Origin: Microbacteriaceae bacterium PS02344
GTDB taxonomy: Bacteria > Actinomycetota > Actinomycetes > Actinomycetales > Microbacteriaceae
Direction of reading: 5' to 3'
NCBI GenBank assembly: GCA_029959905.1
Contig: JASCNZ010000002.1
Span: forward strand, 124,001-188,000
DNA: 64,000 nt
Part shown: piece after piece, positions 23,777 to 26,843 of the stretch
Position numbering within the stretch: position 1 is the first letter of the stretch
How the letters are laid out: every line of letters begins with the position of its first letter
Translations under genes and position numbers: made by a program
The notes under the pieces: model-generated
Seen by the model: only the letters and a program-made list of their open reading frames with translations
Told to the model about the DNA's origin: nothing
The model's database searches: none

Positions 23777-23952
23777 CGCTGCTCCTGCTCGGTGGACCAC
23801 GTCGACTCCGATGCTCCCACGGAGTGCGGTCCACGGCCGGTCGCCTCTCCGGTTCCCGGCGCTATGTGGGCAACACACAGGAGGTTTCGCTAACCTGGAA
23901 TGTCGAGTGTTGCGTCGCCGGCCGTCGTCTGCGATGCGTGAGGAGACTATTC

Positions 23953-25911
23953 GTGCGTTTCGTATGGGCCGTCGTGGCCTTCGTCCTGGCCGCGGTCCTG
24001 ATCGGTGCGGGCATCGCCCAGCGCACGATCTTCCTGGGCCCCTCGTCCGTGACGGAGCAGGTGCAGATCGAGGAACCCGCCCCCTACGTCATGATCGACG
24101 GCGACGTTCTGCGGGCTCACCCCGGTGCGCAGAAGCTGCTGATCGATGGAGACGGCGAGATCTTCGCCGCCTACGGTCGAGCCGCCGACATCGAGGCATG
24201 GCTCGGCGGCGCGGAGTACAACCGCGTCGGTGTCGACGACCAGGGTGACTTCGACGTCGAGCACGTGGCGGCGACCGACGAGGCGTCCGGCGACGAGGCG
24301 TCCGGGGACGAGGCATCCGGCGACGACGCCTCTCCCGGGGCCGGTCGCAACCCCGCCGGTTCCGACCTCTGGCTCGAGTCCTTCACCGACGCCGACGAGC
24401 TCGAGCTGAAGAACATGCAGCTGCCCGACGGGGTGAGCGTACTCGTGTCGTACGACGGCGCGAAGGACGCGCCGGACCAGATCGTCGCCTCGTGGCCGAT
24501 CGACAACTCCACTCCGTGGGCCGGACCGCTGCTCGTTGCAGGCGGGGCCGCCCTCCTCGCGGGACTCGTGCTCTACGTCCTGGCCATCCGGCACCAGCGT
24601 CGTGGGCGTGGACCACGCCGCAAGGGCCCCGGCCCGCTCCCCGTCACGCAGCCGATCGATGTGGCCGCTCTGCCGCCCGCCGAGCGCGAGGCCATCGAAC
24701 AGGCGCCCGCGAAGGGGCCCGACGGTGACCGAGGAGACGAGGGCGACAGCCGTGCCGACCGTCCGTCCGCCTCCGGCGAGTCCACCGGCTCCCCGGAGCG
24801 CCCCGATCAGGAGGGGAAGACCTCGATGCATGCACGTACTCCGCGACGTCGCCTCCGTTGGCTCGCCATCCCTGCCGTCGGACTGACCGCGATCCTCGCG
24901 ACAGGCTGCTCACCGGAGTCCTGGCCGCAGCTCGACGATCCGTCGGCGACGCCGTCCCCTACTCCGACGGTCATCGCTCCGGAGAATCAGAAGCCGCCGG
25001 CCGTGACCGAGTCGCAGGCCGAGCGCATCCTCGGAGAGGTCTCCAGCACGCTGTCCACAGCGGACACGGCGATGGACCTCGATCTCGCCAAGACCCGCCT
25101 CGACGGCCCGGCACTCGCAGCGCGCACCACCGAGTACGCGCTGCGCACCGCGCTTCCCGATACGCCGGCACCCGCTGCCATCCCGACCGATGACGTCGAG
25201 GTAGTGCTGCCCGAGGCGACAGACCGCTGGCCGCGCACGGCGTTGCTCCTGTCGAAGAGCGCCGACGACGACACGGTACCGCCCGTCATCCTCACGATGA
25301 CGCAGCAGGACCCGTGGTCGAACTACAAGGTGACGAACATCGCCGACATGTCGGCCGACGCGGTGTTCCCCGATGTCGCGGCTGCCTGGCTCGGAACCGC
25401 ATTGGTTCCGCAGGACTCGGCGTTCCTGAGCATCGCCCCGGCCGATCTCGCGGCAGCCTTCTCCGACGTGGTCGACACGGGAGAGCAGAGCGAGTCGTAT
25501 GGCATGTTCGACGATCTCTCCCATCGGCTCGCGAGCTCGATCGCGGAGAGCCGTCAGACCGTGGTCCAGACTCTGAGCGACAACGGGGCGGCCGAGACGT
25601 CGGAGGTGACATTCGACATGGCGCCGACCGATGATGCGCCCGTCTCGATGACCACCCTCGACAGCGGTGCGATCGTCGCGGTCACGGTGACCGACGCCGA
25701 GACGGTCAAGCCCACATCGAGCGACGCGGTCATCCGCTTCGGAGACAACGCACAGGCGAAGGCGCTGACCGGAGCCTCCGAATCCGCGAAGGGCGTCGTC
25801 ACGACGTACGAATTCCAGTTGTTCTTCGCCGTCCCCGCCCAGGGGTCGTCCGAGCAGATCAAGCTCCTGGCATCCCGTCAGGACCTCGTCTCCGTAGAGG
25901 TGATCCCGTGA
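23953..25911 (+). CDS. Large three-segment membrane protein, lipoprotein-like C-terminal part
   Basis: 652 aa; family not recognised. Residues 1-20 are a hydrophobic anchor, followed by an outside domain with an acidic DEASG repeat (about 109-127). A second membrane segment lies near 192-215, with the basic cytoplasmic string RHQRRGRGPRRKGPG after it. A third hydrophobic segment (about 302-318) ends in a lipobox-like ILATGC. The rest (about 330 residues) would be extracytoplasmic. AGGAG 7 nt upstream supports this GTG. An internal ATG at 24826 has its own excellent ribosome site. The next gene overlaps its stop by 4 bp. Confidence 0.75.
   Translation: MRFVWAVVAFVLAAVLIGAGIAQRTIFLGPSSVTEQVQIEEPAPYVMIDGDVLRAHPGAQKLLIDGDGEIFAAYGRAADIEAWLGGAEYNRVGVDDQGDFDVEHVAATDEASGDEASGDEASGDDASPGAGRNPAGSDLWLESFTDADELELKNMQLPDGVSVLVSYDGAKDAPDQIVASWPIDNSTPWAGPLLVAGGAALLAGLVLYVLAIRHQRRGRGPRRKGPGPLPVTQPIDVAALPPAEREAIEQAPAKGPDGDRGDEGDSRADRPSASGESTGSPERPDQEGKTSMHARTPRRRLRWLAIPAVGLTAILATGCSPESWPQLDDPSATPSPTPTVIAPENQKPPAVTESQAERILGEVSSTLSTADTAMDLDLAKTRLDGPALAARTTEYALRTALPDTPAPAAIPTDDVEVVLPEATDRWPRTALLLSKSADDDTVPPVILTMTQQDPWSNYKVTNIADMSADAVFPDVAAAWLGTALVPQDSAFLSIAPADLAAAFSDVVDTGEQSESYGMFDDLSHRLASSIAESRQTVVQTLSDNGAAETSEVTFDMAPTDDAPVSMTTLDSGAIVAVTVTDAETVKPTSSDAVIRFGDNAQAKALTGASESAKGVVTTYEFQLFFAVPAQGSSEQIKLLASRQDLVSVEVIP
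24277..24333 (+). repeat. 15-bp tandem repeat, 3.8 copies, coding
   Basis: Units GACGAGGCGTCCGGC, ...GGG, GACGAGGCATCCGGC and a partial GACGACGCCTCT encode DEASG DEASG DEASG DDAS. In-frame repeats of this kind vary in number by slippage. The encoded segment is an acidic flexible linker outside the membrane. Confidence 0.85.
24809..24816 (+). promoter_or_regulatory. Internal Shine-Dalgarno before in-frame ATG 24826
   Basis: AGGAGGGG lies 9 nt before an in-frame ATG that begins a complete lipoprotein-type signal (Arg-rich, hydrophobic, ILATGC). Translation from here would yield a 361-aa protein made only of the C-terminal part of the large membrane protein. Confidence 0.6.
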
Positions 25912-26843
25912 CCGAACTCTCTCCCGCCGCCCTGCGGGGCGCTGTCGACCTGTCGAGCCTGCGCAATCGGCCCAGCGCATCGGCCGGCTCCACGCCGCCG
26001 CAAACCGGGGGATCCGGCATCGCCGATGTGGTCGTCGACGCGACCGACGAATCCTTCGGGCAGGTACTCGAAGCGTCGCGGACCGTTCCCGTCGTCGTCG
26101 ATCTCTGGGCGGCATGGAGCGCCCCGAGTACCGAGCTCAGCCCGGTCCTCGAGCGCATCGTGCGCGAACTGGACGGTCGGGTGCTGCTCGCCCGGGTCGA
26201 CGTCGACGCCAACCCGCAGCTCGTGCAGAGCTTCCGCGCGCAGGCGATCCCGATGGTCGTCGCCGTCATCGCGGGGCAGCCCGTACCCATGTTCAACGGT
26301 CCCGTACCCGAAGAGCAGATGCGCCAGGTGTTCGCGCAGCTGCTGCAGCTCGCCGCCCAGAACGGTGTCACCGGCACGCTTGACGTCGTACCGGCGGCCG
26401 AGAACGGCGAGGGGCCGTCAGAGCCCCCGCTGCCCCCGCTGCACGCCGAGGCCTTCGCCGCGATCGAGGCAGGAGACTACGCCGCCGCTGTCGTTGCCTA
26501 CGAGAAGGCGTTGGCGGAGAACCCGCGCGATGAAGATGCGCTCGCAGGACTCGGGCAGGTTCGCCTGCTCGACCGCGTGCAGGGACTCGACCTGCAGCAG
26601 GCGCGCGCTGCGGCCGCGGCCGCGCCCCTCGACGTGCAGGCGCAGTTCGACGTGGCGGATCTCGACCTCGCGGGTGGTCACGTGGACGATGCGTTCGACC
26701 GGTTGCTCGACCTGTTCGCCGCCCTGCCGACGGACGCTCGCGGTCCGGTCCGTGAGCGGCTGGTGGAGCTCTTCGGCCTCATCGGTGCGGGCGACCCTCG
26801 CGTGGCTGCCGCGCGCAACAGACTCACCTCGCTGTTGTTCTGA
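25908..26843 (+). CDS. CnoX/YbbN-like thioredoxin-fold TPR protein lacking active-site Cys
   Basis: 311 aa. Thioredoxin domain about residues 40-150 (VVVDLWAAWSAPSTELSPVLERIV, AQAIPMVVAVIAGQPV), followed by a TPR region (about 175-300: AFAAIEAGDYAAAVVAYEKAL and NPRDEDALAGLGQV). The redox CxxC is replaced by SAPS (Ser71, Ser74), so it cannot do disulfide exchange. E. coli CnoX is a holdase chaperone that also lacks thioredoxin activity. Starts with GTG overlapping the upstream stop. Confidence 0.88.
   Translation: MTELSPAALRGAVDLSSLRNRPSASAGSTPPQTGGSGIADVVVDATDESFGQVLEASRTVPVVVDLWAAWSAPSTELSPVLERIVRELDGRVLLARVDVDANPQLVQSFRAQAIPMVVAVIAGQPVPMFNGPVPEEQMRQVFAQLLQLAAQNGVTGTLDVVPAAENGEGPSEPPLPPLHAEAFAAIEAGDYAAAVVAYEKALAENPRDEDALAGLGQVRLLDRVQGLDLQQARAAAAAAPLDVQAQFDVADLDLAGGHVDDAFDRLLDLFAALPTDARGPVRERLVELFGLIGAGDPRVAAARNRLTSLLF

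Follow-up and report, generated by a model that had tools for sequence, protein, structure and literature searches.

How is a lipoprotein produced when its signal peptide lies in the middle of a larger open reading frame? The question is raised by a gene in the window, a 64,000-nucleotide stretch of contig JASCNZ010000002.1 from Microbacteriaceae bacterium PS02344. On the plus strand, a single open frame of 652 aa extends from a GTG codon at 23953 to a TGA codon ending at 25911; a ribosome-binding site for the whole frame, gaggag, is found at 23940..23945 (+), 7 nt 5' of the GTG. The frame reads as a fused gene (23953..25911, +) comprising a membrane protein, a linker, an internal lipoprotein signal peptide and a lipoprotein. 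A sequence-only reading had drawn attention to AGGAGGGG at 24809-24816, located 9 nt 5' of an in-frame ATG (24826-24828), and to the 361 aa encoded from this ATG, which display an Arg-rich start, a hydrophobic core and the motif ILATGC. Both observations are borne out by the sequence. That reading had gone on to propose either that two products arise from the frame by internal initiation or that two ancestral genes were fused through loss of a stop codon while the second start was kept. The analysis described below points to a route absent from that proposal: two products remain likely, through cleavage of the protein at the internal signal peptide. In our view the product is likely a polyprotein; the lipoprotein signal inside it would be lipidated by Lgt and cut by LspA.

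All parts of the gene are encoded on the plus strand. The first putative transmembrane span (aa 2-25; 23956..24027) coincides with an AlphaFold2 helix and was assigned by composition. It is followed by a mostly beta domain (aa 26-189; 24028..24519) that would lie outside the membrane. A 15-bp tandem repeat identified by TRF at 24276..24326 (3.4 copies), coding for GDEAS, falls within a low-confidence loop of this domain. A second helix (aa 190-218; 24520..24606) provides the second predicted span, followed by the motif PRR at aa 221-223, nearly invariant among relatives. The linker (aa 219-294; 24607..24834) is disordered in the model, with pLDDT below 50 over most of residues 236-303. With PRR behind the second span, the positive-inside rule predicts the linker to be cytoplasmic, which would place it on the correct side for an export signal. 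The internal signal peptide (aa 295-318), assigned together with the lipobox Cys319 (codon 24907-24909) on the basis of Cys conservation, charge and hydropathy, occupies 24835..24909 and includes a short modelled helix at residues 305-317. The predicted cut lies directly N-terminal to Cys319. The mature lipoprotein (aa 319-652; 24907..25908) forms a confident C-terminal domain in the AlphaFold2 model (mean pLDDT 86.8); modelled alone (aa 332-652), it reaches a pLDDT of 96.8 and folds into two alpha-beta repeats that are weakly NTF2-like.

The lipoprotein half was found in 346 of the 349 genomes of the window's family that were searched, the three others being drafts of 82-88% completeness. The 80 best of 424 named relatives are nearly all Microbacterium, the nearest having 69% identity over the best segment, and the window's genome is accordingly most likely a member of that genus. 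The organization of the locus was read at 249 loci, 208 from the window's family and 41 from other families in the order, with 7 overlapping re-fetches, and another 31 first-half or duplicate loci, left aside. Both halves share a single open frame at 209 of these, comprising 202 of the 208 family loci and 7 of the 41 from elsewhere; 20 loci added later (one of them a repeat of L258) were all fused as well. The six family loci not read as fused include two that run into contig ends (L070, L273) and one with a run of N at the junction (L247). In L237 the frame breaks within the linker, either genuinely or through a draft error. In L222 a lipoprotein gene with a lipobox begins at about position 2419 (+) and no first half lies upstream; the genome concerned carries a second match to the query. 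Finally, in L281 (1086-2652, minus strand) the halves are two genes overlapping at TGATG, with GGAGG before the start. The other five members read in this genus are all fused, so that L281 represents either a secondary split or a draft error. Provided that it is not a draft error, the two halves function as separate chains.

Outside the family the arrangement is different. Thirty-four loci of other families have a separate lipoprotein gene whose product carries an ordinary signal peptide and lipobox; in 33 of them the first half lies directly upstream, the exception (L160) being located on a short contig. With start codons picked by script, these 33 junctions comprise 25 with a 4-nt overlap, 3 with a 1-nt overlap and 5 in which the start falls anywhere from 17 nt inside the stop to 41 nt beyond it. 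In a class-wide sample, the lipoprotein profile matched 43 of 197 genomes; for 24 of the 29 matching genomes outside the order, the best match falls within a 326-458 aa frame. Searches with a single sequence give too low a count for the family, since two genomes of the order (G092 and G105) were missed by them and yet match the profile. From these comparisons separate genes look like the ancestral state, and the fusion of two ancestral genes is supported. The loss of a stop codon would account for part of the event: the halves are indeed neighbours in 33 of 34 split loci, but the 4-nt and 1-nt overlaps put them in different frames, so that a frame shift would also have been needed if the ancestor was organized alike. 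Judging from sequence comparison, the fusion is old. On a lipoprotein tree obtained with a short search, 3 changes separate the fused from the split state, with f6 and f7, two fused families, placed apart from f1; 37 of the 115 inner branches are weak and two loci of the window's family (L233, L236) are placed beside other families, which makes change counts approximate. The three f6 loci (L122, L126, L140) have a fused frame lacking the Cys, with AxA at the junction in two of the three. The f6 fusion looks like a separate event.

The internal start was then assessed over the 202 fused family loci. A start codon of any kind is present between codons -45 and -14 before the lipobox in 150 of them and missing from the remaining 52. 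SD>=5 was scored before the lipobox in 15 loci (7.4%), as against 8.0% of 3361 control windows taken from the mature lipoprotein; the corresponding figures are 68% for the N-terminal starts of the 209 fused relatives and 56% for 39 starts of split lipoproteins (five family loci included). Synonymous shuffles preserving amino acids and codon usage gave the same picture. Observed numbers and shuffle means over the 202 loci were 150 and 156.9 for a start codon, 55 and 57.0 for SD>=4, 15 and 17.8 for SD>=5, and 7 and 7.3 for SD>=6. An apparent enrichment of SD>=6 (7 of 202 loci, against 0.9% of the 3361 windows) is thus explained by the amino acids of the linker. The site in the window (24809..24828, +, including the ATG) behaves accordingly: SD>=6 is reached in 1789 of 2000 shuffles, because the Gln-Glu-Gly codons CAG GAG GGN themselves spell AGGAGGGG. 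In the named, mostly Microbacterium, set (80 loci picked, 2 of them not located, and 16 of the 78 identical over the last 300 aa to a locus outside the named set), a Met lies near the position of ATG 24826 in 25 of 78, and SD>=5 accompanies it in 3 of these 25. The comparison with relatives that the sequence-only reading had suggested revealed one frame within the family and poor keeping of both AGGAGGGG and the ATG, the outcome that this reading had itself named, as far as relatives are concerned, as refuting its proposal. Its notion of a retained second start did not survive at the level of the family, since start codon and SD before the lipobox stand at the level of synonymous shuffling; nor does the production of two products by internal initiation find family-wide support.

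These data show no family-wide selection for an internal start, and on the mature-lipoprotein control windows together with the shuffles we reject internal initiation as a general mechanism. A separate lipoprotein made from ATG 24826 alongside the long protein is nonetheless suggested by the good spacing between AGGAGGGG and the ATG, by the start that split relatives possess at the corresponding place and by an excess of weak sites in the window's own clade. Among the window and its 15 nearest loci (L002-L017), 14 of 16 score SD>=4, where the shuffles average 10.0 and none of 200 attains this value; 8 score SD>=5 (shuffle mean 5.6, with 22 of 200 reaching 8) and 5 score SD>=6 (shuffle mean 2.8, with 18 of 200 reaching 5). 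These 16 loci are close kin, however, and the thresholds were not fixed in advance. A second start restricted to this clade is conceivable from such counts, but given the shuffle-level values of SD>=5 and SD>=6 in the family, the coding origin of the window's site and the 3 sites among 25 Met-bearing named loci, we regard internal initiation at ATG 24826 as very improbable.

In contrast to the start site, the signal itself is conserved. A lipoprotein signal consists of a positively charged n-region, a hydrophobic core and a lipobox with Cys. All three elements are found here, with the difference that the signal peptide is not N-terminal: it begins around residue 295 of the 652-aa chain, with two predicted spans in front of it. 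The Cys corresponding to Cys319 is kept in 199 of 209 fused proteins (195 of 202 in the window's family, 4 of 4 in f7 and none of 3 in f6) and the lipobox exceeds chance, in agreement with the lipoprotein signal postulated from the sequence. The motif fits in 193 of the 195 family loci with Cys, in which the commonest lipoboxes are LSGC (50), LAGC (30), LTGC (23) and FTGC (20), followed by AAGC and FAGC (13 each) and ATGC (9). Thus the Ala at position -3 of the window's lipobox, singled out in the sequence-only reading as unusual, is real without being peculiar to this gene. In the same 195 loci, the 20 aa preceding the core contain a median of 6 Arg/Lys and 1 Asp/Glu, and the best 12-aa core has a Kyte-Doolittle value between 1.77 and 3.01. 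Exactly one Cys occurs in 150 of the 202 family proteins and none in 3. Genes for both LspA and Lgt are present in the window's genome.

An AxA motif lies within -3 to +12 in 9 of the 10 Cys-less fused proteins (the exception being L122), as compared with 45 of the 199 that bear the Cys; two loci added later, L368 and L370, have AxA too. Among 221 distinct fused family loci, 212 have the Cys and 9 have AxA. Both states occur within genus g92, where L221 and L368 carry AxA while L367 and L369 carry a lipobox. On the tree, in which L370 is labelled lipobox although it has AxA, the AxA state in the family requires 6 changes, at least 4 of them by well supported branches. As far as this approximate count can indicate, AxA arose several times in the family. 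One would expect such an interchange of Cys and AxA where cutting is required and can be done by either peptidase. The linker was compared by way of an anchor motif present in 227 of 264 distinct loci. Over 43 close pairs, its dN/dS was 0.246, the halves having values of 0.085 and 0.106; by this measure purifying selection acts on the linker, which fits its translation within one chain.

These elements lead us to infer how the protein lies in the membrane, that it is lipidated and cut, and why the halves were fused. Translation would start at 23953; the two spans would insert with the first-half domain outside, leaving the C-terminal tail in the cytoplasm. After the flexible linker, the internal signal, with its Arg-rich stretch, hydrophobic core and lipobox, would insert as a third span. 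Lgt would then add diacylglycerol to Cys319 and LspA would cut before this residue; in species with AxA, signal peptidase I would do the cutting instead. The predicted products are a lipid-anchored lipoprotein and a membrane protein that either keeps or loses the old signal as third span, in 1:1 amounts. Overlapping stop and start codons usually couple translation, and the fusion may supply equal amounts in place of the overlap found in split genes. The polyprotein reading draws on the single frame of 202 of 208 family loci, the internal Cys in 199 of 209 fused proteins, the AxA substitution where the Cys is lost and the purifying selection on the linker. That this is a family-wide polyprotein cut by LspA at the internal lipobox, with signal peptidase I having taken over the cutting on several occasions in a frame that stayed fused, seems to us reasonably likely.

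Several observations run against cleavage. A Cys that is lipidated yet never cut would be conserved as well, and the AxA found in 45 of 199 Cys-bearing proteins occurs by chance in Ala-rich cores. L122 has neither Cys nor AxA, L222 lacks a first half, L281 consists of two overlapping genes and L237 has a break in the linker. We know of no example in which LspA cleaves a membrane protein at its third span. The fusion might never be cut, the product then staying in the membrane by three spans, with both domains outside and possibly a lipid on Cys319; the frame kept at 202 of 208 family loci and the purifying selection measured for the linker would suit such a protein. This version leaves unexplained why a cut motif is kept, why AxA replaces the Cys upon its loss and why L281 has returned to two overlapping genes inside a fused genus, and we hold it to be improbable. 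Draft frames do break, as in the linker of L237, and the fused frame could for this reason be suspected of being a sequencing or assembly artefact. That 202 of 208 loci share this frame, each in a separate genome and across many genera, refutes this suspicion and leaves it practically no probability.

Precedents exist for a signal peptide inside a fused frame. The FbcH precursor of Bradyrhizobium cytochrome b/c1 joins a membrane protein and its anchored partner in one chain, which is cut behind an internal signal peptide. Unlike the window gene, FbcH has no lipobox and undergoes no lipidation, and its parts are partners in one known enzyme. A second instance is Saro_1194 of Novosphingobium aromaticivorans. 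In the published account, this one annotated frame corresponds to two neighbouring proteins in two related species, and top-down mass spectrometry places the beginning of the mature C-terminal part at residue 414, after an A-V-A that stands behind a signal-peptide-like stretch; the authors suggest that these are really two separate proteins (PMC3608174). Saro_1194 is a single protein, of the signal peptidase I type, whereas the family studied here has a lipobox, is fused family-wide and shows repeated change of site type. Two features of internal-signal polyproteins of the FbcH and Saro_1194 type are seen in the present family: the halves are neighbouring genes in relatives, and a cleavage motif is conserved between them. 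As far as the literature was searched, what is new here is the lipobox, the age of the fusion across the family and the recurrent change of cleavage type.

No Pfam family matched the 652-aa protein at E<=1. The NCBIfam model NF053531 (SCO2278 family lipoprotein) matched the lipoprotein half along residues 50-355 (E 1.1e-9), with 37.6 bits against a curated cut-off of 210, which by sequence would make this half a distant relative of the SCO2278 family at most. Where it appears in PMC5733086, in a figure legend, SCO2278 is named solely as a hypothetical protein. Foldseek returned no match at E<=0.001 for either the full-length or the lipoprotein model. The best VIA-align hit of the full model (Z 8.3 over 60 residues) involved paired helices, and the top structural match of the lipoprotein model was PARC6 (Z 7.2, rmsd 2.9, 111 aligned residues); entries named NTF2-like scored weakly (Z below 5) against the latter model. 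These searches found no convincing structural relative for the full or the lipoprotein model.

If the predicted cut takes place, LspA can act on a signal peptide far inside a membrane protein, and annotation that scans only N-termini for signal peptides would miss such cases. The repeated replacement of a lipobox by AxA in a frame that stays fused amounts to a natural test, which suggests that cutting is needed more than the lipid. Downstream of the fused gene lies a thioredoxin-TPR gene identified by Pfam (25908..26843, +), whose GTG overlaps the stop codon of the fused gene (GTGA). Among family loci, 204 of 208 have it on the same strand, as do 40 of 41 loci outside the family. Our searches found no function for the membrane protein, lipoprotein and thioredoxin/TPR set; the fusion points to joint action of two of its members. 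The thioredoxin-TPR protein carries CxxC at 84 of 89 Microbacterium loci, at 32 of 115 loci from other genera of the family (41 of the 115 being gapped at this place) and at 8 of 40 loci from other families. In the window, SAPS takes the place of CxxC and the protein contains no Cys.
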